A DNA stretch of 64,000 bases from Gemmatimonadaceae bacterium (GTDB lineage: Bacteria > Gemmatimonadota > Gemmatimonadetes > Gemmatimonadales > Gemmatimonadaceae), in assembly GCA_011525845.1 (NCBI GenBank), contig WYBP01000014.1, positions 62,001 to 126,000 on the forward strand, given 5' to 3'. The notes below the pieces were generated by a model that saw nothing but the letters and a program-made list of their open reading frames with translations, was not told where the DNA came from and searched no databases. Position 1 is the stretch's first letter. Every line of letters starts with the position of its first letter. Below, in pieces: positions 30,546-48,696 of this stretch. The translations under genes were made by a program, and so were the position numbers.

Positions 30546-31028
30546 GTGGACCTCACCGTCAATGGACGCACCGTGGGCGTGTCGGCCGCAGGGAACGTCA
30601 CGCTCCTCGACTTCCTGCGGGAGACGCTCGCGCTCACCGGCACCAAGCGCGCCTGCGACCGCGGGGAGTGCGGCGCCTGCACCGTGCTGCTCGACGGCAA
30701 GCCGGTCTACAGCTGCCTCACGCTGGTGAACGCCTGCGCGGGGCAGTCGGTGGAGACCATCGAGTCCCTCGGCACCGGCGAGGCCCCGCACGCGCTCCAG
30801 CGGGCCTTCGCCGCGGAGGACGCGGCCCAGTGCGGCTTCTGCACCCCCGGCCAGCTCATGGCCGCCGCGGCCCTCCTCGCGGAGAACCCCGCCCCGTCCG
30901 ACGCGGACGTGGTGCACGCGCTCAGCGGGAACCTCTGCCGCTGCGGCACCTACCCGAAGATCGTGCGCGCCGTCCGGCGCGCGGCCGAGACGCTCCGCGT
31001 AGAGTCCTCCGGCGCGCACCATGCCTAA
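30546..31028 (+). CDS. [2Fe-2S] small subunit of a xanthine-dehydrogenase-family enzyme
   Basis: A 160-residue protein with a plant-type [2Fe-2S] domain (C37, C42, C45, C57: [15 protein letters not shown]...C) and a second helical [2Fe-2S] domain (C96, C99, C131, C133: CGFCTPGQ and CRCGTYP). This is the electron-transfer subunit of CoxS/HcrC/XdhC-type molybdenum hydroxylases. GTG 30546 follows TAAATC by six bases. The large subunit gene overlaps by 8 bases. The FAD subunit is not adjacent; it lies at 38473. Confidence 0.92.
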
Positions 31029-33375
31029 GGCCCCGCGCCGCGCCGCACCCAAGGCGGCGAAGGGAGGGCCGGCGACCGCTCCACCGGCCGCGCGGTTCGT
31101 GAAGACCACCGTCGAGGTCGAGGGTCGGCGCGAGGAGCGGATGGTCGAGCTCCCCGCGTTCGACCTGGAGCCCTGGGGGGAGGGCGCGGTGCTCACGCAC
31201 GTCGGCGCGCGCACCCCGCGCACCGACGCGCCGGGCAAGACGGCCGGCCGCGCCCCCTACACCACCGACGTGCGACGGCCGACGCAGCACGCCGCGGCGA
31301 TCGTCCGCGCGACCGTCGCCCGCGGACGCGTGCGCGCGATCGACACGACCGCGGCCCGCGCGCTCCCCGGCGTGCTCGACATCCTCCTGCACGACGACGT
31401 GCCCGCTCGCACCCGCCTCTTCTCACCCGAGGTCACCTACGTCGGCCAGCCGCTCGCCGCCGTCTGCGCGACCACCGAGGCGATCGCCCGGCGCGCGGCC
31501 CGCCTCGTGCGCATCGAGGTCGAGACGCTCCCGCACGCGGTCACGGCCGAGCAGGCGACGCGCGACGGCGCCGCACCGGTCCGTCCGAAGCTCACGAGCA
31601 ACCTGATGGGCGACGCGCCCCGCGTGCACGAACGCGGCGACGTGGCCAGCGCGCTCGCCGGCGCCGCGGTGACGGTCACCCGCGAGGTGCGCACGCCCTG
31701 CGCGCTGCACAGCGCGCTCGAGCCGCACGCCGCGGTGGCCGAGTGGGAGGGCGACCGCGTCACCATCTGGGAGAGCACGCAGGGCATCTACCGCGTGCGC
31801 GAGAACCTCGCGAAGGCGCTCGGCGTGCCCCACGCGGACGTGCGCGTGATCTGCGAGGCGATGGGCGGGGGCTTCGGCGCCAAGAACTACGCCGGCGCGC
31901 ACACCTACATCGCGGCGCTCTTCGCCCGCCGGCTCGGCGCCGCGGTGCGCTGCACCCTGGACCGCGAGGGGGAACAGGTCGACACCGGCAACCGGCCGAG
32001 CTCGGTGCAGCGCATCACGCTCGGTGCCACGAAGACGGGGAAGCTGGTAGCGATCGACCTCGAGGCCACCATCCCGCTCGGCGTGGGCGGTTGGGAGGGC
32101 GGGCCCGGCGAGATCTACCACGAACTCTACGCCTGCCCCAACGTGCGCACGCGCGAACGGTTCGCGTACGTGAACACCGCAGCGATGGCCGCCTTCCGCG
32201 CGCCCGGACACGCCGAGGGCGCGGTCGGCCTCGAGGTGGCGATGAACGCGCTCGCGAAGGAGCTGGGGATGGACCCGCTCGCGCTGCGCCGCGCGAACCT
32301 CGCCACCCGCGACCAGAAGCAGGACCGCCCCTACACCGGGAACCGGCTCGCCGAGTGCTACGACGAGGGCGCGCGGCGGATCGGGTGGGGCGAGGAGCGG
32401 CGCGGTGGCGCGCCACACCTCAGGCGCGGCGTCGGCGTGGCGGCACAGATCTGGTCGACCGGTGGCGGTCCTCCCTGCTACGCCACGGTGCGCCTCAACC
32501 CCGACGGCACCGCGGACGTCTTCGCCGGGTCGCAGGACCTCGGCACGGGCACGCGCACCATCGTCGCGCAGGTCGCGGCGGAGGCGCTCGGGCACAAGCT
32601 GGAGATGGTGCGCGCGGTGATCGGGGACACCGCGAGCGGCCCCTACGCCGGGAACTCCTGGGGCTCGATGACGGTCGCCTCGCTCGCACCTGCCGTTCGG
32701 ATGGCGGCGGAGGATGCGCGTCGCGCGCTGCTCGACGCCGCGGCGGGACTCCTCGACGCGCACCCGCGCGACCTCGAGACGGCGGACGGGCGCGTCACGC
32801 TCCGCGACACCGACCGTGGGATGACCTTCGGCGAGATCACCGCGCGCCTCGGGCACGTGATGATCCAGGGGCATGGCTCGCGCGGCCCCAATCCGCAGGA
32901 GGCGGGGATCGTCACCACCGGCGCGCAGTTCGCCGAAGTCGAGGTGGACACCGAGACGGGCGTCGTGCGCGTGCTGCGCGTGGTCGCCGTACACGACGCC
33001 GGACGGATTGTGAACCCCACCCTCGCCGAGTCGCAGCTCGAGGGCGGGATCATCCAGGGGATCGGCTTCGCGCTCTTCGAGGAGCGCGCGCTCGACACCC
33101 GATTCGGCCTCCCGCTGAACGTGGGGCTGCACGACTACAAGATCCCCACGCTGGCCGACATCCCCGAGATCGACGGGCACTTCCTCGCGGGCGCGGACCC
33201 GCAGGCCAACCACGTGGGCGCGCGGGGCATCGCCGAACCGGCGATCATCCCCACCGCGCCCGCGATCGCCGGTGCGGTCGCCGACGCGCTCGGCGTCGAG
33301 GTGCTCGAGTTGCCGATGACCCCCTGGCGCGTGCTCCGCGCGCTCCAACGCACCGACCCCACGGACACGCCATGA
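31021..33375 (+). CDS. Molybdopterin-binding large subunit of a xanthine-dehydrogenase-family enzyme
   Basis: A 784-residue protein. The aldehyde-oxidase/xanthine-dehydrogenase hammerhead domain is followed by molybdopterin-binding domains with EAMGGGFGAKNYAG, AAFRAPGHAEGAVGLE and the catalytic-glutamate motif GARGIAEPAIIPTAPAI (E739). The exact substrate (purine, aldehyde or aromatic heterocycle) cannot be fixed; the FAD subunit is of the Fe-S-containing type seen in 4-hydroxybenzoyl-CoA-reductase-like and YagS enzymes. The N-terminal 25 residues ([20 protein letters not shown]...) are a Lys/Ala/Pro tail outside the family core. It overlaps the serine hydrolase gene by ATGA. Confidence 0.9.
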   Translation: MPKAPRRAAPKAAKGGPATAPPAARFVKTTVEVEGRREERMVELPAFDLEPWGEGAVLTHVGARTPRTDAPGKTAGRAPYTTDVRRPTQHAAAIVRATVARGRVRAIDTTAARALPGVLDILLHDDVPARTRLFSPEVTYVGQPLAAVCATTEAIARRAARLVRIEVETLPHAVTAEQATRDGAAPVRPKLTSNLMGDAPRVHERGDVASALAGAAVTVTREVRTPCALHSALEPHAAVAEWEGDRVTIWESTQGIYRVRENLAKALGVPHADVRVICEAMGGGFGAKNYAGAHTYIAALFARRLGAAVRCTLDREGEQVDTGNRPSSVQRITLGATKTGKLVAIDLEATIPLGVGGWEGGPGEIYHELYACPNVRTRERFAYVNTAAMAAFRAPGHAEGAVGLEVAMNALAKELGMDPLALRRANLATRDQKQDRPYTGNRLAECYDEGARRIGWGEERRGGAPHLRRGVGVAAQIWSTGGGPPCYATVRLNPDGTADVFAGSQDLGTGTRTIVAQVAAEALGHKLEMVRAVIGDTASGPYAGNSWGSMTVASLAPAVRMAAEDARRALLDAAAGLLDAHPRDLETADGRVTLRDTDRGMTFGEITARLGHVMIQGHGSRGPNPQEAGIVTTGAQFAEVEVDTETGVVRVLRVVAVHDAGRIVNPTLAESQLEGGIIQGIGFALFEERALDTRFGLPLNVGLHDYKIPTLADIPEIDGHFLAGADPQANHVGARGIAEPAIIPTAPAIAGAVADALGVEVLELPMTPWRVLRALQRTDPTDTP

Positions 33376-35785: not shown

Positions 35786-36463
35786 ATGACGGAGACCAGG
35801 ACCGAGAGCGGGACCGAGACCAGGACGGAGACCGGCGTGCTGCCCACGCGCTCGATCGCGCTCCACGACGCGCCGGCCCCGCTGGCGCCGGGCGATCTTG
35901 CGGCCCGCTTCGCCGGGGGCCTCTCGTTCGAGGCGATGCTCGCCGACGCCGAGATGAACGTGGAGCTCTACCGGAACTTCCGTTCGCGGACCGAGGTCCC
36001 GGAGGAGTACGTCGCGCGGATCGCGGCCACGGGGCGCCGCTGGCACCTGCTCGTGATCAGCGAGGACTGGTGCGGCGACTCGGTGAACATCGTGCCCTGG
36101 GTCGACGCGCTCGCCGCGGCCTCGCCGGCGACGGAGATGCGCCTGATCGGCCGGGACGCGAATGCCGACCTGATGGACCTGCACCTCACGAACGGCCGGT
36201 CGCGCGCCATCCCGATCGTCCTCGTGCTCGATGATGCGTTCGTGGAGCGCGGGTGGTGGGGTCCGCGTCCCGGGCCGTTGCAGGAGTGGTTCCTCTCGGA
36301 GGAGGCGCAGCGGATGGCGAAGCCCGAGCGCTATCGCGAGTTGCGGATCCGGTACGCGCGCGACCGGGGGAGGACGACGATGGAGGAGATCGTCCAGCTG
36401 ATCGAGCAGGCCGCCGCTCAGGACGCGAGCGCGCCCTCGCCGACGGAGAGCGCGGCCTCGTAG
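35786..36463 (+). CDS. Thioredoxin-family protein with a WCGDS (monothiol) site
   Basis: A 225-residue protein. A thioredoxin-fold region covers residues about 60-180 with W95-C96-G-D-S99: one cysteine and a serine in place of the second. A cis-proline segment SRAIPIVLVLD follows. Such monothiol proteins usually bind or reduce a different partner thiol or a low-molecular-weight thiol. Residues 1-20 are a Thr/Glu/Arg repeat (ETRTESGTETRTETG) encoded by near-identical 24-bp DNA repeats. No signal peptide. The last 46 bases overlap the end of the convergent Fic-like gene. Confidence 0.78.
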   Translation: MTETRTESGTETRTETGVLPTRSIALHDAPAPLAPGDLAARFAGGLSFEAMLADAEMNVELYRNFRSRTEVPEEYVARIAATGRRWHLLVISEDWCGDSVNIVPWVDALAAASPATEMRLIGRDANADLMDLHLTNGRSRAIPIVLVLDDAFVERGWWGPRPGPLQEWFLSEEAQRMAKPERYRELRIRYARDRGRTTMEEIVQLIEQAAAQDASAPSPTESAAS

Positions 36464-37377
36464 GCGTACACCCGGTCGCGGGCGCGGCCGGTCACCTCCC
36501 GCGCGAGCCCTGCGTCGGTGAGCCGTTCGAGCGCCGCGGCAGCGGCCGGCCTCGAGACGCCGAGTTCCTCCGCCAGTGCGGGCATCGAGGTGGCGGCGTG
36601 GCGGCGCAGGGCCCCCAGCGCGCGAGCGGCCGTGATCCCCGCGCGCCCCATCCCCGCGGCGCGCTCGTCCTCTTCGGTCATGGACTCCGTCACGGCGCGC
36701 ACGGCATCGCGCAGCTGCCGCGCGCGCTGCGCGGCCGCGGGGAGCGCGAGCTGGACCCAGGGGTCGTGCTCTCCCTCACGCCAGCTGCGGATCGCGCGGG
36801 CGCGCGCGTCGCCTCGCACCGTCGCGAAGGGGAGGAAGCGGAGGTGGTCCGTGCGCCCGCCGCCGCAAAGCAGGAGTGCGGCGCAGGCGTCGCCCGCACT
36901 GGCTGCGGCGGCGTTCCCGCCCTCCGGCGACTCGCCCTCGGGCGTCTCCACGTCCGACGATTCCGGGAACCAGGCGGCGGAGTCGAGTGCACGGAGGAGC
37001 ACCGGGCGCACGCGGCCTCGCTCGCGCCAGATCTCCTCCAGGCGGTCGCGCGCGACGTAGTTTGTGAGGGTGGGAACGAGGTCGGTGAGGCGGGAGGCGG
37101 AGAGGAACGCTCCACCCCGCACGCGGCGCTCCTCGTCCGCGAGCGCGAGACGCCAGCGAGCGGCCCGCGACGGGAGGGTGGCCTCGTGGAGCGTGTCGGC
37201 CTCGGAGGCGAGGAGGTGGGAGAGCGTGGACTGGGTGCGGTCGGTGAGCTCCGCGACGGCCACGAGCAGGAGGACGAGTCCGTGGCTTGGCGCGGCTGCT
37301 CGACAGACCTCGTCGAGTCTCCCGACTTCGTCCGCGGCCTCTTCGATCAGGGCTGAGCTCTCGGCGTCGTTGCGCAC
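36418..37377 (-). CDS. Fic-like protein without a catalytic loop, with C-terminal winged helix
   Basis: A 319-residue protein. The C-terminal winged helix (257-310: LGVSRPAAAAALERLTDAGL, then REVTGRARDRVYAYEAAL) is the type found at the end of Fic proteins. Other stretches also echo Fic: DRTQSTLSHLLASEA at 46-60 resembles the (S/T)xxxE inhibitory helix region, and HDPWVQLALPAAAQRA at 204-219 the post-Fic helix. No HPFxxGN(G/R) motif is present, so AMP transfer is very unlikely. It may have become a pure transcription regulator. Start GTG 37377 lies at the edge of an AT-rich promoter island shared with the ChaN-like gene. The fold assignment is from pattern similarity only. Confidence 0.55.
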   Translation of the reverse strand: MRNDAESSALIEEAADEVGRLDEVCRAAAPSHGLVLLLVAVAELTDRTQSTLSHLLASEADTLHEATLPSRAARWRLALADEERRVRGGAFLSASRLTDLVPTLTNYVARDRLEEIWRERGRVRPVLLRALDSAAWFPESSDVETPEGESPEGGNAAAASAGDACAALLLCGGGRTDHLRFLPFATVRGDARARAIRSWREGEHDPWVQLALPAAAQRARQLRDAVRAVTESMTEEDERAAGMGRAGITAARALGALRRHAATSMPALAEELGVSRPAAAAALERLTDAGLAREVTGRARDRVYAYEAALSVGEGALAS

Positions 37378-37475
37378 AATAAGTAATATTAGACCGTTTT
37401 ATCTGCTTAACAATCTGACGGCTCAAAGTGACATCGAACACAGCACGATGCACAAACAATCATAAAACATATTTA
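37378..37475. promoter_or_regulatory. AT-rich divergent promoter island
   Basis: About 98 bases between two divergent starts are far richer in A+T than anything around. They contain the palindrome TAATATTA (37385-37392), AT-rich runs on both strands and TATCTG/TTAACA-like elements. It is the natural place for promoters of both the Fic-like regulator and the ChaN-like gene and possibly for autoregulation by the former. Confidence 0.5.
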
Positions 37476-38450
37476 ATGCGCTATTTGTTGCTTTCCGTTT
37501 CGCTCATGATGCTCTCCGCTTCGCCGGAGCTCGCTCTCGCCCAGACCGCGGTCGCGGCGCCGGCCCCGGCCGTCGCAGCCGCCGCGGCATCCGGCTACGC
37601 CGCTCACCGCGTCTACGACTCCAAGCGCAAGCGGATCACCGACTTCGAGGCCATGGTCGCCACCCTGGCCAAGGCCGACATCGTCTTCCTGGGTGAGCAG
37701 CACGACGACCCGCGCACCCACCAGCTCCAGGCCGCCGTGCTGGAGGGGATCGCCCGCCGCCGCACCGGCACGGTCGTCCTCGCCCTCGAGATGTTCGAGC
37801 GCGACGTGCAGCCGGTGCTCGATGAGTACCTCGCGCGGAACGTCGCGGAACAGGACTTCCTCGCGGCATCGCGCCCCTGGCCCAACTACCGCACGGACTA
37901 CCGCCCGCTCGTCGAGTTCGCGCGCGCCGGCGGCTGGCCCGTCGTCGCCGGGAACGTCCCCCGGCGGCTCGCGTCGATGGTCTCGCGCGGCGGCCTCGCC
38001 ACCCTCGACACCCTCGCGAGCGAGCAGCGCGCCTTCGTCGCGGAGGAGCTCTCCTGCCCGCGCGACGACTACTGGAAGCGGTTCCGCGCGACGATGGGGG
38101 ACATGAGCGGCCACGGGATGCAGCTCTCACCCGAGCAGCTCGAGGCCACGGTCTGGCGCGTGTACGAGGCGCAGTGCGTGAAGGACGAGACGATGGCGGA
38201 ATCGATCGCCGAAGCGTTCACGACCACCGGGGCGCCGGTGGTGCACGCCAATGGGTCGTTCCACTCGGACTACCGGCTCGGGACGGTCTCGCGCGTGGCG
38301 CGTCGCCTCCCGAAGGCGAAGATCGTCGTCGTGAGCTTCGTCCCGGTGGAGGACCTCGATGCGGTGGACGGCAAGTCGCGCCGCAAGCTCGGCGACTTCG
38401 TCGTCTTCACGCTCGCCACCCCGAAGCCAGCGTCCCCCGCGGCACGCTGA
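37476..38450 (+). CDS. Secreted ChaN-like haem-binding protein (DUF399 family)
   Basis: A 324-residue protein: signal peptide (MRYLLLSVSLMMLSASPELALAQ), an Ala/Pro linker, then a ChaN-family domain. The fold marks are IVFLGEQHDDPRTHQLQAAVL (haem-binding GEQHDDP), LEMFERDVQPVLDEYL, and VVHANGSFHSDYRLGT near the C-terminus. ChaN-like proteins bind haem and are linked to iron/haem homeostasis at the envelope. ATG 37476 is used because the signal peptide starts there, after an AT-rich promoter region. Its neighbour on the opposite side is the Fic-like regulator. The molybdenum-hydroxylase FAD-subunit gene follows after 22 bases. Confidence 0.87.
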   Translation: MRYLLLSVSLMMLSASPELALAQTAVAAPAPAVAAAAASGYAAHRVYDSKRKRITDFEAMVATLAKADIVFLGEQHDDPRTHQLQAAVLEGIARRRTGTVVLALEMFERDVQPVLDEYLARNVAEQDFLAASRPWPNYRTDYRPLVEFARAGGWPVVAGNVPRRLASMVSRGGLATLDTLASEQRAFVAEELSCPRDDYWKRFRATMGDMSGHGMQLSPEQLEATVWRVYEAQCVKDETMAESIAEAFTTTGAPVVHANGSFHSDYRLGTVSRVARRLPKAKIVVVSFVPVEDLDAVDGKSRRKLGDFVVFTLATPKPASPAAR

Positions 38451-38472: not shown

Positions 38473-39441
38473 ATGACCTTCGCGTACCTCCGCCCCGACT
38501 CCCTTCCCGACGCGCTCCGCGCGCTCGCGGAACCCTCGACCGTCGCCCTCGGCGGCGGCACCGACCTCCTGGTCTGGATCGAGGAGGGGCTCGCCGCGCC
38601 GGCCACGCTGGTGGACGTGCGGAACCTCCCGGGCGCCGCGGAGATCACGGTGGGCGCGGACGGCGCGATGCGGATCGGAGCGGGGGTGCGGATCGCGACG
38701 CTCGCGGAGCACCCCGCGGTGCGGGAACACTTCCCCGTGCTCGCCGACGCCGCCCGCAGCGTCGGGACCCCGGCGCTGCGGAACATGGGGACGCTCGGCG
38801 GCAACCTCGGCCAGCGCCCGCGCTGCTGGTACCTCCGGCGCGGCGTGCGCTGCTTCAAGAATGGCGGCACCGCCTGCGCGGCGGTCGACGGCGAACACCA
38901 CTACCACGGCATCATCCCCGGCGGCACCTGTCACGCCGTGCACCCATCCGATCCCGCGGTCGCACTCGAAGCGCTCGACGCGCACATCGAGATCGTCGCG
39001 GCCAACGGGGTCTCGCGACGCGTCACGGTCGAGGCGCTCTTCAGCGGCGCCGCCGCGAATCCCGCGGCCGAGCTCACGCTGGCGCAGGGCGAGCTCATCA
39101 CCGCGATCGAGATCCCGGCGGCCGCGCGCGACGGCGTGCAGCACTGGGAGAAGCTCATGCAGCGCGGCGCCTGGGACTTCGCGCTCGTCTCCTGCGCGGC
39201 GGTGCGTCGTGCCGACGGCGCGGTGCGGATCGCCCTCGGCGGCGTGGGCGCCGCGCCCTGGCGCGTGTCGCTCTCGGTGGAGGAGGACGTCGCCTCCGGT
39301 GGGCTCGACGAGGAGAGCCTCGACGCCCTGGCCGAGCGGGCGCTCTACGATGCGGAACCGCTCGCGCAGAACGCCTACAAGGTCACCATGGCACGCGCCG
39401 CTCTGCGGCGGGCGATGCGTCGGCTGATCGCCACGGCATAG
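38473..39441 (+). CDS. FAD subunit (Fe-S-containing) of a xanthine-dehydrogenase-family enzyme
   Basis: A 322-residue FAD-binding protein of the CO-dehydrogenase-flavoprotein type: VALGGGTDLL (25-34) and RNMGTLGGNLGQ (103-114) bind FAD. The inserted region has C118, C127, C135 and C153 (RPRCWYLRRGVRC, TACAAVDGEHHYH, GTCHAVHPSD), the four Cys that hold a [4Fe-4S] cluster in YagS/HcrB-type subunits. The catalytic partners (small and large subunits) are at 30546-33375, about 5 kb away. No second copy of these partners is visible here, so this subunit probably assembles with them, though that is inference. It follows the ChaN-like gene by 22 bases and may be read through with it. Confidence 0.9.
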   Translation: MTFAYLRPDSLPDALRALAEPSTVALGGGTDLLVWIEEGLAAPATLVDVRNLPGAAEITVGADGAMRIGAGVRIATLAEHPAVREHFPVLADAARSVGTPALRNMGTLGGNLGQRPRCWYLRRGVRCFKNGGTACAAVDGEHHYHGIIPGGTCHAVHPSDPAVALEALDAHIEIVAANGVSRRVTVEALFSGAAANPAAELTLAQGELITAIEIPAAARDGVQHWEKLMQRGAWDFALVSCAAVRRADGAVRIALGGVGAAPWRVSLSVEEDVASGGLDEESLDALAERALYDAEPLAQNAYKVTMARAALRRAMRRLIATA

Positions 39442-39523: not shown

Positions 39524-40672
39524 ATGCGCCCATCGACGCATCCCATCGCCCGTGCGGCCACGCGCTGCGCGCTCGGCGCCATCCTCGCACTCGCCCTGGC
39601 CGCTCCGGTCGCGCAGTCGCAGGAGTCCCGCACGCCGACCCGAAAGGTCATCTCCATCGGGCATCACCCCAGGGTCGACGGGCTGCGCATCAACTTCCGC
39701 GACCACGACCTCGAACGCGTGCGCGGGATCAACCTCACCGTCTGGAGTCCGCGGCACGATCTCGGAGAGGGCGTGGTCTCGGGCTTCGCGCTCGGCGTGC
39801 CGCTCACCGGCGTCGGCGAGCTCACCGGGATCGGCGCCGGCGTCTTCGGCTTCAGCGCCGAGGGCGACGTCACCGGCATCACCATCGGCGGCATCGGAGC
39901 CGGTGCCGGTGGCGAGCTCCGCGGCATCTCGCTCGGCGGCATCGGCGTCGGGGCCGGCGGGGGCGTCCGCGGACTCGCCGTCGGCGGGATCGGCGTCGGG
40001 TCGGGCGGGAGTGTGCGTGGGATCGCCGTGGGTGGTGTCGGCGTGGGGTCCGGCGGGAGCGTGCGCGGGGTCGCGGTGGGCGGCATCGGCGTGGGATCTG
40101 GCGGCACGCTCCGCGGGCTCGCTGTCGGCGGTATCGGCGCCGCCGCGGGTGACGACGCACGCGGTGTGCTGATCGGCGGGATCGGCGCGGCGGCCGGAGG
40201 CTCGCTGCGCGGGATCGCCATCGGTGGAATCGGCACCGGCGCCGGCGGGAGGATGCGCGGCCTCGCGATCGGCGGCATCGGTGTCGGCGCCGGCGGCGAC
40301 GTGACCGGGATCGCGCTCGGCGGGATCGGCGTCGGCGCGGGAGGCACCTTCCGCGGATTCGGCATGAGCGGACTGGGCGTCGGCGCACCGACCGTCGTCG
40401 GCGCGGCGATCGCGCCGCTCGTGGGTGGGGAGAGCGTCACCGGGGTGATGATCGCCCCGGTGCTCTTCCGGACCTCGCGTGACGGAAGCCTCACGGGGAG
40501 CGCGGTCTCGGCCGTGACGCAGGTGCGCGGCCACCAGCACGGCCTCACGATCGGCATCGTGAACATCGCCGAGTCCTTGAACGGCGTGCAGCTCGGGCTC
40601 GTGAACGTGGTGACGGGGAATCCGTCGGGGCGGCGCGTGCTCCCCCTGATCAACTGGGGGAGCGCGCGCTAG
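39524..40672 (+). CDS. Secreted glycine-rich 16-residue repeat protein (LA_2272-like C-terminus)
   Basis: A 382-residue protein with a signal peptide (residues 1-32, cleavage near AQSQ). Residues 119-278 hold ten 16-residue repeats of the form (I/L)(A/S)(V/I/L)GGIGxGxGGxxRG. Gly, Val and Ile at fixed places suggest a beta-solenoid or beta-helix of surface type. The C-terminus (GLTIGIVNIAESLNGVQLGLVNVV) matches the LA_2272 surface-repeat style of short exported proteins. It is likely exported to the cell surface; the function is unknown. A single-gene unit between the FAD subunit and the convergent NTF2-like gene. Confidence 0.75.
   Translation: MRPSTHPIARAATRCALGAILALALAAPVAQSQESRTPTRKVISIGHHPRVDGLRINFRDHDLERVRGINLTVWSPRHDLGEGVVSGFALGVPLTGVGELTGIGAGVFGFSAEGDVTGITIGGIGAGAGGELRGISLGGIGVGAGGGVRGLAVGGIGVGSGGSVRGIAVGGVGVGSGGSVRGVAVGGIGVGSGGTLRGLAVGGIGAAAGDDARGVLIGGIGAAAGGSLRGIAIGGIGTGAGGRMRGLAIGGIGVGAGGDVTGIALGGIGVGAGGTFRGFGMSGLGVGAPTVVGAAIAPLVGGESVTGVMIAPVLFRTSRDGSLTGSAVSAVTQVRGHQHGLTIGIVNIAESLNGVQLGLVNVVTGNPSGRRVLPLINWGSAR
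39878..40357 (+). repeat. Ten 48-bp tandem repeats inside the glycine-repeat gene
   Basis: Ten in-frame units of 48 bases encode the 16-residue motif. The units share GGCGG(C/G)ATCGG..G.CGG..CGG but differ at many third positions, so this is an old, selected array rather than a recent slippage tract. Confidence 0.85.
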
Positions 40673-44455: not shown

Positions 44456-44495
44456 CGCGCCCAACCACCGATTGCGAAGCATCTTAGGCACAGTA

Positions 44496-44513
44496 TGTGA
44501 ACGTATGTTCACA
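44496..44513. promoter_or_regulatory. Dyad TGTGAAC-N4-GTTCACA upstream of sufB
   Basis: Perfect 7-bp inverted arms with the spacer GTAT. It lies 70 bases upstream of the putative sufB -35 element in an AT-richer stretch. It contains the GAAC-N4-GTTC core of Gram-positive LexA boxes, but no DNA-repair gene is near, so this assignment is not made. It is probably an operator for suf or for an unknown unit. Confidence 0.45.
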
Positions 44514-44581
44514 CGCTGATTTGTGACCTTTTGGATCCGCCGCGCTCCCGGGACCCACTCCCGACGAGTGCGGCCTTTTTG

Positions 44582-44624
44582 TTGACCCTCATCTATTCCC
44601 GACTAGATTGCTTTGCTATAGCAA
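44582..44624 (+). promoter_or_regulatory. Putative sufB promoter with overlapping palindrome
   Basis: TTGACC (44582-44587) and TAGATT (44604-44609), 16 bases apart, form the best classical promoter in the window. The perfect palindrome TTGCTATAGCAA (44613-44624) overlaps the predicted transcription start; the flanking GATTGC/GCAATC extends the symmetry. A repressor such as an Rrf2-family (IscR/SufR-like) Fe-S sensor binding there would explain suf control. The regulator is not in this window. Confidence 0.55.
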
Positions 44625-44647
44625 TCACTGCTCCACAACAGGTCCGA

Positions 44648-46081
44648 ATGAGCTCATCAATCGAAACACTGGTCAATAAGGAGTACGCGTACGGCTTCGT
44701 CACCGACATCGAGTCGGATACGATCCCGCGCGGCCTCACCGAAGAGACCATCCGCGCGATCTCCGCCAAGAAGGACGAGCCCGAGTGGCTCCTCGACTGG
44801 CGCCTCAAGGCGTTCCGCCGCTGGCTCACGATGACCGAGCCCCACTGGCCGAACGTCACCTACGCCCCGATCGACTACCAGGCGCAGACCTACTACTCCG
44901 CGCCCAAGAGCGTGAAGCCGCTCCAGTCGCTCGACGAGGTGGACCCCGAACTCCTCCGCACCTACGAGAAGCTCGGCATCTCCCTCACCGAGCAGAAGCG
45001 CCTCTCCGGCGTGGCCGTGGACGCGATCTTCGACTCGGTCTCCGTCGGCACCACGATGAAGAAGGAGCTCAGCGCCGTCGGCGTGGTGTTCTGCTCCTTC
45101 GGCGAGGCGGTGCACTCGCACCCCGAGCTCGTGAAGAAGTACCTCGGCTCCGTCGTCCCCTACTCGGACAACTTCTTCGCCGCGCTCAACTCGGCCGTCT
45201 TCTCCGACGGCTCGTTCGTCTACGTCCCCAAGGGCGTGAAGTGCCCGCTCGAGCTCTCCACCTACTTCCGCATCAACGCCGCGGACACGGGGCAGTTCGA
45301 GCGCACGCTGATCGTCGCCGAGGAGGGCGCGAGCGTGAGCTACCTCGAGGGGTGCACGGCGCCCAAGCGCGCCACCAACCAGCTCCACGCGGCCGTGGTG
45401 GAGATCGTCGCCCTCGACGACTCCTCGGTGAAGTACTCCACCGTGCAGAACTGGTACGCCGGCGACGAGAACGGCGTCGGCGGCATCTACAACTTCGTCA
45501 CCAAGCGCGGGAAGGCGTTCACGAACGCCAAGATCTCCTGGACGCAGGTTGAGACCGGCTCGGCGATCACCTGGAAGTACCCGTCGGTGATCCTGCAGGG
45601 GGACAACTCGGTCGGCGAGTTCTACTCGGTGGCCGTGGTGAACAACCACCAGCAGGCCGACACCGGCACGAAGATGATCCACATCGGGAAGAACACGAAG
45701 TCCACGATCATCTCGAAGGGGATCAGCGCGGGGAAGGGCCAGAACTCGTACCGCGGCCAGGTGAAGGTCCTGCCGAAGGCCGAGAACGCCCGCAACTACA
45801 CGCAGTGCGACTCGATGCTGATCGGGAACGCCTGCGGGGCGCACACCTTCCCCTACATCGAGGTCGCGAACCCCACCGCGACCCTCGAGCACGAGGCGAG
45901 CACGTCGAAGATCGGGGAGGACCAGATCTTCTACTGCAAGTCGCGTGGCCTGAACGCCGAGCACGCGATCAGCCTGATCGTGGCCGGGTTCTGCAAGGAG
46001 GTCTTCAAGGAGCTGCCGATGGAGTTCGCGCTCGAGGCGCAGCAGCTGCTCGGGATCTCGCTCGAAGGGTCAGTCGGTTAA
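44648..46081 (+). CDS. sufB: SufB, Fe-S cluster scaffold subunit
   Basis: A 477-residue Suf[72 protein letters not shown] and the C-terminal beta-helix motif [25 protein letters not shown], which includes the conserved Cys (C396). SufB and SufD form the scaffold with the SufC ATPase. ATG 44648 begins the family N-terminus ([17 protein letters not shown]). It is the first gene of the operon after the promoter at 44582. A heptad-repeat inverted repeat separates it from sufC. Part of a complete Suf system. Confidence 0.97.
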
Positions 46082-46092
46082 CGGCTGATGGG

Positions 46093-46175
46093 AGGTGTGA
46101 GGTGGGAGGTGTGAGGGAACGACACCGACCCGCCGACCGCAGTTCCTCACACCTCACCCCTCACACCTCACACCT
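46093..46175 (+). repeat. Heptad element, copy 3 (long hairpin between sufB and sufC)
   Basis: Each arm contains two decamers AGGTGTGAGG (46093-46102, 46107-46116) or their complements CCTCACACCT (46145-46154, 46159-46168). The stem of about 26 pairs has a 4-base mismatch zone and a 21-nt loop (46121-46141). It lies inside the suf transcript between the sufB stop and the sufC start. There it could stabilise the sufB mRNA end or dampen sufC expression. Confidence 0.85.
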
Positions 46176-46186
46176 GAAACTCAAGC

Positions 46187-46939
46187 ATGCTTAAGATCAC
46201 GAACCTGCACGCGACCGCCGGCACGAAGGAGATCCTCAAGGGGATCACCCTCACGATCAACGCCGGCGAGGTGCACGCCATCATGGGGCCGAACGGCTCC
46301 GGGAAGTCCACCCTCGCGCAGGTCATCGCGGGCCACCCCGGCTACGAGGTGACCAAGGGCTCCATCGAGTACCAGGGGAAGGACCTCCTCGACATGGAAG
46401 CGGAGGAGCGCGCGCAGGCGGGCGTCTTCCTCGCCTTCCAATATCCGGTGGAGATCCCGGGCGTCACCAACGCCTACTTCCTCCGCGCGGCGTACAACGA
46501 GCTCCGCAAGGCGCGTGACGAGGACGAGGTGGACCCGATCGAGTTCCTCGACATCATGGAGGAGAAGCTCGCGCTCGTGGAGATGGATGCAACGATGATG
46601 CAGCGCTCCGTGAACGCCGGCTTCTCCGGCGGCGAGAAGAAGCGGAACGAGATCCTGCAGATGGCGGTGCTGGAGCCGACCCTCGCCGTGCTCGACGAGA
46701 CGGACTCGGGACTCGACATCGACGCGCTGCGCATCGTGGCCGAGGGCGTGAACAAGCTCCGCTCGCCGGAACGCTCCACGCTCGTCGTGACGCACTACCA
46801 GCGCCTCCTCAACTACATCGTGCCCGACCACGTGCACGTGCTCGCCGGCGGGCGGATCGTCCGCTCGGGCGGGAAGGAGCTCGCGCACGAGCTCGAGGAG
46901 AAGGGGTACGACTGGCTCCTGGAGCCGGTGCCCGCGTGA
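46187..46939 (+). CDS. sufC: SufC, Fe-S assembly ABC ATPase
   Basis: A 250-residue ATPase: Walker A GPNGSGKST at 34-42, the Q-loop region FLAFQYPVEIPGV, signature FSGGEKKRNEI and Walker B LAVLDETDSGLDIDALR. SufC binds SufB/SufD and uses ATP to remodel the scaffold. Start ATG 46187 follows the heptad element by 12 bases, with no strong Shine-Dalgarno between. The sufD gene follows with a 4-base overlap GTGA. A complete, typical family member. Confidence 0.97.
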   Translation: MLKITNLHATAGTKEILKGITLTINAGEVHAIMGPNGSGKSTLAQVIAGHPGYEVTKGSIEYQGKDLLDMEAEERAQAGVFLAFQYPVEIPGVTNAYFLRAAYNELRKARDEDEVDPIEFLDIMEEKLALVEMDATMMQRSVNAGFSGGEKKRNEILQMAVLEPTLAVLDETDSGLDIDALRIVAEGVNKLRSPERSTLVVTHYQRLLNYIVPDHVHVLAGGRIVRSGGKELAHELEEKGYDWLLEPVPA

Positions 46940-48246
46940 CCGCGCCCTACACGGACCAGTTCGAGGCGTACGCCTCGAACGGCGGCGGCGAGGGGCCCGC
47001 GTGGCTCCCGACGCTGCGGAAGCGTGCGTTCGACCGCTTCAGCGACCTCGGCTTCCCCACCACGCGCGACGAGGACTGGCACTTCACCTCGGTCACGCCG
47101 ATCGCCGAGCGCACCTTCAAGGCGCTCAAGCCCGGCCCCACGACGCTCACCCTCTCGGAGCTCCGGCCCTGGCTGGTGGATGAGTCCTGGCACCGCCTGG
47201 TCTTCGTGAACGGCCAGCTCGAACCCGCGCTCTCGCAGTTCACCGAGCTCCCGGCCGCGGTGCAGGTGAGCACCCTCTCCGAGGCGCTCCGCGAGGAGCC
47301 GGAGTGGGTGGAGAAGCACCTCGGTTCCCTCGCGGCGTTCGACAAGGCCGCGTTCACGGCGCTCAACACCGCGTTCATGCAGGACGGCGTGGTGGTCCGC
47401 GTGCCGAAGAGCGAGGTGGTGGACACTCCGCTGCACATCGTGCACGTGGTGGACGCGCAGGCCGAGGGTGCGGCGCTCCATCCGCGCCTCGTGGTCGTGG
47501 CGGAGCCGCTCTCGCAGATCACGCTGGTCGAGTCCTTCGTCGGGCTCGGCAAGGCCTCGTACCTGATGAACGCGGTGGCCGAGGTGGCCGTGGGGAATGG
47601 CGCGCGCGTGGACCACTACAAGGTCCAGCGGGAGAGCACGGAGGCGTTCCACGTCGGCACCACGCAGGTGACGCAGGGGCGCGACTCGATGTACCACTCC
47701 TTCTCCTACGCGGCCGGCGCGGCGCTCTCGCGCACGAACATCTACACCCGGCTCGCGGGCGAGGGGGGCGAGGCCCGCCTCAACGGGATGTACATGCTCG
47801 ACGGCGTGCAGCACGCGGACCACCAGACCTTCGTGGAGCACCTCGCGGAGTCCTGCGCGAGCCGTGAGCTCTACAAGGGAATCCTCGACGGCTCCTCGCA
47901 CGGCGTCTTCAACGGAAAGGTCTACGTCGACCCGATCGCGCAGAAGACGGACGGCAAGCAGACCAACAAGGCGCTCCTCCTGAGCGACCGCGCCCGCGTG
48001 GACACCAAGCCGCAGCTCGAGATCTTCGCCGACGACGTGAAGTGCACGCACGGCGCGACGATCGGCCGGATCGACGAGAGCGCGCTCTTCTACCTGCAGA
48101 GCCGCGGCATCCCGCTGGAGAACGCGAAGGCGCTCCTCACCTATGCCTTCGCCGCCGAGGCGCTGGAGACGATCGAGATCGACGCGCTGCGCGTGGAGCT
48201 CGAGCGTGGCGTGTTCGAGCGCTTCACCCACACGCGCCTGGAGTAG
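46936..48246 (+). CDS. sufD: SufD, Fe-S cluster scaffold subunit
   Basis: A 436-residue SufD: RFSDLGFPTTRDEDWHFTSV at the N-terminus; beta-helix strands with VVVAEPLSQITLVESFVGLG; and the C-terminal conserved block GKVYVDPIAQKTDGKQTNKALLLS with DDVKCTHGATIGRIDESALFYLQSRGI. It forms a heterodimer with SufB in the SufBC2D complex. Start GTG 46936 overlaps the sufC stop. The sufU gene starts 9 bases after the stop, with the ribosome site GGAG just before the TAG. Confidence 0.96.
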   Translation: MTAPYTDQFEAYASNGGGEGPAWLPTLRKRAFDRFSDLGFPTTRDEDWHFTSVTPIAERTFKALKPGPTTLTLSELRPWLVDESWHRLVFVNGQLEPALSQFTELPAAVQVSTLSEALREEPEWVEKHLGSLAAFDKAAFTALNTAFMQDGVVVRVPKSEVVDTPLHIVHVVDAQAEGAALHPRLVVVAEPLSQITLVESFVGLGKASYLMNAVAEVAVGNGARVDHYKVQRESTEAFHVGTTQVTQGRDSMYHSFSYAAGAALSRTNIYTRLAGEGGEARLNGMYMLDGVQHADHQTFVEHLAESCASRELYKGILDGSSHGVFNGKVYVDPIAQKTDGKQTNKALLLSDRARVDTKPQLEIFADDVKCTHGATIGRIDESALFYLQSRGIPLENAKALLTYAFAAEALETIEIDALRVELERGVFERFTHTRLE

Positions 48247-48255
48247 GCGACCCCG

Positions 48256-48696
48256 ATGGCCGACGCGGCACTCGACGCCCTCTACCAGGAGGTCATCCTG
48301 GACCACAACCGTCGGCCGCGGAACTTCCACGCGATCGAGGGCGCGACCTGCACGGCCGAGGGGAAGAACCCGAACTGCGGGGACCAGCTCACGGTCTGGC
48401 TGCTGCTCGAGGGCGACAAGGTCGCGGACATCTCCTTCCAGGGCGTCGGCTGCGCGATCTCCAAGGCCTCGGCCTCCCTGATGACCCAGGCCGTGAAGGG
48501 GAAGACGCGCGCGGAGGTCTCGGAGCTCTTCGAGAAGGTGCGGCGGGTGCTCACGGGAGAAGAGACGGCGCCTGCGAAGCTCAAGGAGCTCGGGCAGCTG
48601 CGGGCGCTGAGCGGGGTCTCGAAGTTCCCGATGCGCGTGAAGTGCGCGTCGCTCGCCTGGCACGCGATGAAGTCCGCGATGGACGGCGCGGCGTGA
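48256..48696 (+). CDS. sufU: SufU, zinc-dependent sulfur acceptor/scaffold
   Basis: A 146-residue SufU: C41 and D43 (NPNCGDQ), C66 (GVGCAIS) and C130 (RVKCASLAW) match the three cysteines and aspartate that bind zinc and receive sulfur from SufS. The residues 101-125 region, between the second and third cysteines, is the insert typical of SufU rather than IscU. It accepts persulfide from the cysteine desulfurase encoded two genes downstream. The Rieske gene overlaps by GTGA. Confidence 0.95.
   Translation: MADAALDALYQEVILDHNRRPRNFHAIEGATCTAEGKNPNCGDQLTVWLLLEGDKVADISFQGVGCAISKASASLMTQAVKGKTRAEVSELFEKVRRVLTGEETAPAKLKELGQLRALSGVSKFPMRVKCASLAWHAMKSAMDGAA

Follow-up and report, generated by a model that had tools for sequence, protein, structure and literature searches.

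A Fic descendant without the AMP-transfer motif as a candidate local DNA-binding regulator beside an AT-rich island in Gemmatimonadaceae

Fic proteins with a winged helix are usually regarded as enzymes that carry an accessory helix-turn-helix (HTH) domain. In the available text of the reports, Fic-HTH proteins that repress their own gene or have a DNA-stimulated activity are already known. CccR of Yersinia pseudotuberculosis combines Fic and HTH, uses an A/T-rich inverted repeat to repress its own promoter and dimerises mainly through its first helix and N-terminal loop (PMC9755527). CbFic2 of Coxiella burnetii has a Fic domain and a DNA-binding winged HTH and is an active enzyme stimulated by DNA (PMC10628234), and the Fido paper, in its available part, describes the N-terminus of DUF1612 as "remote fic-like", with a winged helix at the C-terminus (PMC2686095). 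The present study concerns a 64,000-nucleotide stretch of DNA from a Gemmatimonadaceae bacterium (GCA_011525845.1, contig WYBP01000014.1, positions 62,001 to 126,000), hereafter the window, and within it the gene of a protein here called pFic. The pFic family represents the opposite end from the described enzymes: the enzyme part has decayed and the DNA-binding part is now the conserved one. On sequence comparison and analogy we hold it moderately probable that pFic is a pseudoenzyme of Fic descent that has become a local DNA-binding regulator, acting on its own promoter and perhaps on the facing gene. The central features are the following.

36418..37377, minus strand: pFic, a Fic-derived protein without the motif for transfer of adenosine monophosphate (AMP), 319 amino acids, GTG start (open reading frame, domain, profile and model comparisons)
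36682..37377, minus strand: pFic residues 1-232, predicted all-helical Fic-derived domain that has lost the flap, the inhibitory motif and the HPFxxGN loop (AlphaFold2 model, structure match, hhalign, joint alignment)
36460..36681, minus strand: pFic residues 233-306, C-terminal winged helix with conserved recognition helix (SRPAA) and wing (TGRARDRV) (Pfam, alignments, structure match)
37378..37475, no strand: AT-rich island, 66.3 % A+T, separating the start codons of pFic and ChaN
37476..38450, plus strand: ChaN/Cofac_haem_bdg (PF04187) gene, divergent partner of pFic

The Fic ancestry of pFic was apparent in both sequence profiles and predicted structure. In a profile-profile comparison with hhalign, 17 pFic proteins matched five intact Fic proteins over 290 columns (probability 99.4, E value 1.9e-21), and an hmmsearch of PDB sequences with the pFic profile returned the Mycobacterium marinum Fic protein 7cb8 at E 3.1e-9 (profile positions 10-290), further rows (Mcl-1 and others, E 0.027 or worse) being taken as noise. 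The AlphaFold2 model, built from 17 sequences, had a predicted local distance difference test score (pLDDT) of 94.3 and a predicted template modelling score of 0.91. All seven Foldseek matches at E ≤ 0.001 were Fic proteins. With VIA the best match of the model was again 7cb8 (Z 24.5, root-mean-square deviation (rmsd) 3.5, 297 aligned), followed by SoFic 3zcn (Z 23.1), further Fic structures (13-16) and winged helices from 10.6 down, the two highest values indicating that the model contains the Fic/Fido helical core. A model of the g13 group, the first member of which is 30 % identical to the pFic of the window, had a pLDDT of 87.8 and reached Z 22.3 to 7cb8. The sequence-only reading had seen traces of the Fic fold in this protein, and these values bear it out; when the predicted structure was compared with Fic folds, a non-Fic fold was not the outcome. 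None of the members of the 17-member alignment set matched Fic or Fic_N in Pfam at E ≤ 0.1, while the intact Fic protein L046 matches both; short motif-less Fic descendants can escape the Pfam Fic models. Above the Pfam cut-offs, pFic contains only its C-terminal winged helix (MarR_2 31.3 bits, cut-off 27; HTH_24 26.5 bits, cut-off 21.9). Judged by sequence and model, Fic descent of pFic is practically certain.

Along its whole length pFic shares fold and domain order with SoFic SO_4266 (3eqx/3zcn) and M. marinum Fic (7cb8), at Z 22.7-24.5, but it is about 45-75 residues shorter than these chains, with the flap and the loop missing. Both are Fic enzymes with an active site, and the intact Fic proteins of the joint alignment likewise carry the motif. 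CccR likewise has an N-terminal Fic fold and a C-terminal HTH, but according to the available text it keeps the Fic motif and AMPylates FtsZ, whereas pFic has neither motif nor flap (PMC9755527). CbFic2 shares the combination of Fic and winged HTH and differs, as reported, in being an active enzyme (PMC10628234); its full-length match to the pFic model was poorer (Z 15.5, rmsd 9.1). The fic-like N-terminus and winged helix of DUF1612/HTH_13 are also reminiscent of pFic, the DUF1612 example in the available part of the Fido paper being from Rhizobium and pFic from Gemmatimonadota (PMC2686095). Two pFic winged helices passed the HTH_13 cut-off of 26.1 bits (L032 with 28.3 and L037 with 27.6). 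Membership of pFic in DUF1612 or DUF1403 was nevertheless rejected, as the scores were below the cut-offs: the 17-member set gave no match to DUF1612 (PF07756, gathering 30.1) at E ≤ 0.1, the best DUF1612 match in the own genome (13.3 bits) was at another place, and the best DUF1403 match (PF07183, gathering 31.8) among the 17 members was 25.6 bits in L032, in the C-terminal part only, with none in the pFic of the window. An HTH protein of a Paracoccus plasmid (L170:3266-4111) scored 29.5 bits with DUF1403, just under the 31.8 cut-off, and matched pFic in its C-terminal part with 95.5 % in hhalign; it is possibly a separate motif-less Fic lineage. Among the matches listed in searches of the open-licence literature (inactive or motif-less Fic regulators; Fic with Gemmatimonas), no title or abstract dealt with the pFic family. 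The family provides a natural loss-of-function series for the role of the Fic HTH alone.

Of 61 related genomes, 25 had a match in a protein search, and of 148 family genomes, 61 had one in a profile search. Within the genus, 15 of the 16 relatives had a match, the genome without one being G013, the contig of which ends about 1 kb past the FAD gene of the locus (flavin adenine dinucleotide, FAD). Absence from these searches is soft, since G167 was not among the profile matches listed, yet it carries pFic at the same place (E 7.5e-22). The members were sorted by HP[FIL]xxGN into 29 intact Fic proteins of 379-444 amino acids (motif HPFLDGN, one HPFRDGN) and 43 motif-less open reading frames of 264-358 amino acids except one that is truncated, one gene being counted twice; G026, G093, G031 and the second matches of G102, G076 and G106 were left unsorted. 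Because of this sorting the absence of the motif is true by definition. Independent of it, the 43 motif-less frames are those at the locus of the window, and they share the other losses; they come from three genera (g1, g13, g20), with one distant copy in a fourth genus (L110). Removed before counting were L020, which repeats the gene of L047, L085, which is near-identical to L084 but stayed in the facing-gene count, and the truncated L039, which stayed in the island and facing-gene counts. In the tree, a branch supported at 100/100 separated the 40 pFic proteins from the other sequences, which, given the midpoint root and long branches, allows a single origin of pFic without proving it. Ratios of non-synonymous to synonymous substitution rates (dN/dS) were 0.09-0.35 in 26 overlapping pairs of relatives more than 60 % identical, a set that excludes the pFic of the window and its pairs (its relatives are below 60 % identity), and thus in the relatives the gene is kept by selection. 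The idea of pFic as the dead partner of an active Fic protein was rejected: PF02661 was absent from nine of the 16 pFic-bearing genus genomes (own genome included, several assemblies incomplete), so pFic is not simply such a partner. The own genome has one PF02661 match elsewhere (C9:215689). Five plasmid records gave short winged-helix matches, with E 0.06 or worse.

The loss of the catalytic parts goes beyond the motif. The pFic of the window contains neither HP[FIL]xxGN nor the fuller form HPFx[D/E]GN[G/K]R. When 29 intact Fic and 40 pFic proteins were aligned jointly, the column of the catalytic His held His in 0 of 40 pFic proteins (27 gaps, five Ala, three Ser, two Thr and one each of Arg, Phe and Glu), and the flap columns, filled in the 29 intact proteins, were gapped in all 40 apart from one stray residue. 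The class II inhibitory motif (S/T)xxxE(G/N) is not recognisable either, the SSQIEG columns being unconserved, with Glu in five of 40. The pFic model has no strand of three or more residues before residue 262, so a flap hairpin is not predicted. The earlier suggestion that the AMP-transfer loop is gone from this protein is supported, and on this sequence evidence it is highly probable that pFic does not transfer AMP.

The winged helix, in contrast, has been retained, as the sequence-only reading had also proposed, and it is preferentially conserved. The two wing arginines occur in 39 and 40 of the 40 pFic proteins of the joint alignment. The ratio of identity in the winged helix to that in the N-domain was 1.59, 1.28 and 1.51 in three pFic groups (15, 11 and 13 sequences), compared with 0.71 in the 29 intact Fic proteins; this reversal means that the constraint has moved to the winged helix. 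The 17-member alignment has 15 invariant and 13 nearly invariant columns; the invariant residues are found mostly in the winged helix and in the linker preceding it, and the conserved residues of the N-domain are L-P-F, G174, E12 and R87. None of these 28 columns holds Cys or His; in the g13 group only, one Cys (C153) is nearly invariant.

The gene facing pFic matched PF04187 with 212.8 bits (cut-off 27.7) and is predicted by its family name to bind haem. Its start was taken, by reading the sequence, as the ATG at 37476, which gives a gap of 98 bp (37378-37475) with 66.3 % A+T compared with 28.4 % in the window, as described before. This island is the AT-richest stretch of the window: the 98-bp maximum, sampled every five bases, was 65.3 % at 37381, and the next peak was 56.1 % at 44576. 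The exceptional character of the island proved to be conserved. In all 37 pFic loci with sufficient flank (L037, L080 and L082 had too little) the A+T maximum over 90 bp fell on the island, whether ChaN was present or not, and the same held for the separately tested L110, with 71 % A+T. Where this gene block lacks pFic, the equivalent stretch peaked at 36-46 % (7/7 fetched loci), and at ChaN genes elsewhere without pFic the maxima were 38-48 % (8/8 loci). The upstream excess of A+T over the gene averaged 36.6 for pFic (minimum 26.9, n=37), compared with 8.8 for other genes of the window (maximum 21.7, n=48) and averages of 3.9-16.1 in groups of orthologous neighbours. The island is thus correlated with pFic and not with ChaN, and a weaker form of it goes with winged-helix Fic genes generally. 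Set beside CccR, as its available report describes it, the island fits an old habit of acting on AT-rich DNA before the own gene.

An operator was sought in the islands. Expectation-maximisation gave the motif AGTAATATTA / AAAAGaAATtTTA in islands of genus g1, with z 7-9 compared with 12 shuffles, and in 10 of the 16 islands the best 14-base site starts no more than about 40 bases outward from a reference codon close to pFic residue 10. Second copies in some islands lie within the first ChaN codons. The distant L110 has ATAAGTAA next to the pFic start codon, at the same place as the copy in the window:

37381..37392, plus strand: AAGTAATATTAG, the island motif as it occurs in the window, a few bases ahead of the GTG when read on the pFic strand

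It is possible that the island motif is an operator, a -10 element or both. Besides the restricted set behind the dN/dS values, several observations weigh against pFic as a regulator acting at this island. The genus motif lies where a -10 element would be expected and may be inherited promoter sequence. In six of the 16 islands its best site is elsewhere; the g13 motif scores higher, but its sequences are close kin and kinship can explain it, and the g20 motif is weak (z 3-5). There is no clear operator, because the islands contained no repeats above resampled sequence, either inverted (8.14 vs 8.00 matches of 10, n=37; close and wide repeats tested) or direct (8.03 vs 8.25 matches of 10, n=37), and the operator of CccR is, in the available text, a 10-bp inverted repeat with a 26-bp spacer (PMC9755527). 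A regulon is not visible either, since the motif occurs once in the genome. Intact Fic proteins of the family are also AT-rich upstream (excess 21.3, n=27; two of the 29 had too little flank), so the island exaggerates an older feature. Finally, the pairing of pFic and ChaN in the genus is not independent evidence, because the whole gene block is syntenic. In the window the repeat search gave no inverted repeat in the island and a single two-copy direct repeat of 15 nt (73 %), and a scan of 37000-37800 for sigma-70 promoters and terminators gave none. A regulon through the island motif was rejected: AAGTAATATTAG at 37381-37392 was the only exact copy found in the genome, and with up to two mismatches the reversed control was commoner than the motif (11 vs 3 sites).

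Since the parts for chemistry are lost, the DNA-binding end is kept and an AT-rich stretch adjoins, pFic is probably a small local gene switch, and a role as local DNA-binding regulator is what we would expect with fair confidence. A Fic-plus-winged-helix ancestor of the SoFic/CccR type would have lost its inhibitory motif, the flap that docks the target and the loop for AMP transfer. Its helical core would have been kept as a scaffold, and the strongest constraint would have continued to rest on the winged helix. The winged helix may bind the AT-rich island before its own gene and thereby repress or tune its own promoter; by position, pFic could perhaps also control the facing promoter, usually that of ChaN with the FAD gene of a molybdenum hydroxylase behind it. 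The Fic core might serve as scaffold, dimerisation unit or sensor. The best reading, by analogy with the available description of CccR, is that the mode of pFic resembles this Fic autorepressor minus the enzyme activity. That ChaN is a direct target of pFic is a conjecture to which we give slightly less than even weight. The protein and its island of about 100 bp form a directly testable pair.

Other explanations of the same observations were considered. The island could be a strong AT-rich promoter pair unrelated to binding by pFic, and a TANNNT element 14 bases before the pFic start, at the position of the genus motif, would suit this; however, other genes of the window have a small upstream excess of A+T, and the island is gone where pFic is gone although the neighbour genes stay, so we find this explanation unlikely while giving it some weight. 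It is somewhat less likely that pFic binds DNA for self-repression alone, with the facing gene a bystander and ChaN unregulated. Across genera pFic and its own island are constant and the facing gene is variable, the AT-rich upstream regions of the intact Fic genes point the same way, and CccR, in the available text, represses itself. Against this stands the short distance between pFic and ChaN, estimated at 1-163 bp in relatives with start codons set by alignment and measuring 98 bp in the window. The two promoters should therefore fall within the island or directly beside it, and a protein bound there would be expected to act on each of them. A self-repressor lacking enzyme output would moreover bring no obvious benefit that explains the purifying selection.

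The Fic-derived domain might instead keep another activity at a rebuilt site, such as transfer of a nucleotide or phosphate compound or binding of a ligand. AvrB offers a precedent, having kept the fold and bound adenosine diphosphate without the Fic motif, according to the available part of the Fido paper (PMC2686095), and L-P-F, G174, E12 and R87 are still conserved in the N-domain of pFic. The missing flap, the faster change of the N-domain, the concentration of invariant residues in the winged helix and preceding linker, and the replacement of the catalytic His by no single residue make this quite improbable. Least credible of all is a decaying pseudogene of a Fic toxin, with which the loss of catalytic parts would agree; it is contradicted by the low dN/dS values among relatives, the strongly conserved winged helix and the frames open at the same place in 15 of the 16 relatives within the genus (a contig end truncates one of them) and in further genera. 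We therefore return to the local regulator as the preferred reading and consider what it might respond to, for which the gene neighbourhood is relevant.

35786..36463, plus strand: Thioredoxin_9 gene, convergent neighbour of pFic (Pfam)
38473..39441, plus strand: FAD-binding subunit of a molybdenum hydroxylase, 22 bp after ChaN (Pfam)

The genes of the locus are, in order, the large subunit of a molybdenum hydroxylase, a beta-lactamase-family protein, YhbY, an M23 peptidase, the thioredoxin-like protein (which overlaps the 3' end of pFic by 46 bp, tail to tail), pFic, ChaN and the FAD subunit. The order is mostly kept in the genus, g13 and g20, with gaps; in several, for example, ChaN and the FAD gene are about 1 kb apart. 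Three of 42 pFic genes are at contig ends, 33 face ChaN and six do not. The FAD subunit faces pFic in L094, L099, L100 and L112, where ChaN is missing from the locus, a small open reading frame that looks lipoprotein-like by reading its sequence does so in L045, and the distant copy of L110 (L110:2776-3910) faces a Fer4_19 4Fe-4S mono-cluster protein. Four loci of genus g2, in which neither pFic nor ChaN was detected, have the thioredoxin-like gene facing the FAD subunit. The conservation of the pFic-ChaN pair, which had been proposed as a check, thus holds for 33 of the 39 copies with a readable neighbour, while the other six copies persist facing other genes.

The sequence-only reading had also suggested that pFic controls haem or iron functions, and as stated this part was not supported. 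A specific haem or iron sensor governing ChaN and other iron functions would agree with the many copies that face ChaN, with G013, in which neither pFic nor ChaN gave a match, with the nearly invariant C153 of the g13 group and with metal-cofactor neighbours (the molybdenum-hydroxylase FAD subunit, Fer4_19 in L110 and the SUF genes at 44648-48696, 6 kb downstream). As both the facing and the nearby genes lean to metal-cofactor proteins, an iron theme is possible, though circumstantial. On the other hand, pFic persists without ChaN in six of 39 copies, the 17-member alignment has no invariant or nearly invariant Cys or His, and ChaN loci elsewhere lacked pFic and island in all eight examined (71 genomes had a ChaN match). 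A haem or iron operator in the islands was rejected, since the best similarity to the Fur box averaged 11.23 of 19, with an observed maximum of 13, compared with 10.81 in shuffled letters (95th percentile 13). Such a sensor is improbable, and haem or iron as the signal for pFic is doubtful to the same degree. Equally speculative is the thought that the emptied AMP pocket responds to a cellular signal connected with metal cofactors (haem, Fe-S or molybdenum enzymes), while a co-evolving AT-rich island is recognised by the winged helix; if this is true, the Fic fold would be the basis of a new class of one-component regulators, a family of ligand-sensing Fic pseudoenzymes acting as transcription factors.

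Some further observations were made in the window. The second AT-rich peak (44456-44647, 56 % over 98 bp) lies before a SUF gene of the SufB/D type and contains a perfect palindrome, TTGCTATAGCAA, at 44613-44624, present as a single copy in the window; it is possible that it is a regulator site of the SUF genes. The molybdenum-hydroxylase genes for the 2Fe-2S, large and FAD subunits (30546-33375 and 38473-39441) are split by the intervening beta-lactamase-family, YhbY, M23, thioredoxin-like, pFic and ChaN genes, and mostly so in the genus. The FAD subunit at 38473-39441 matched 4-hydroxybenzoyl-CoA reductase beta (TIGR03195) below the cut-off. Downstream, at 39524-40672, a repeat-rich protein with many Gly-rich units and no Pfam match is encoded, and it occupies the same place in many members of the genus.

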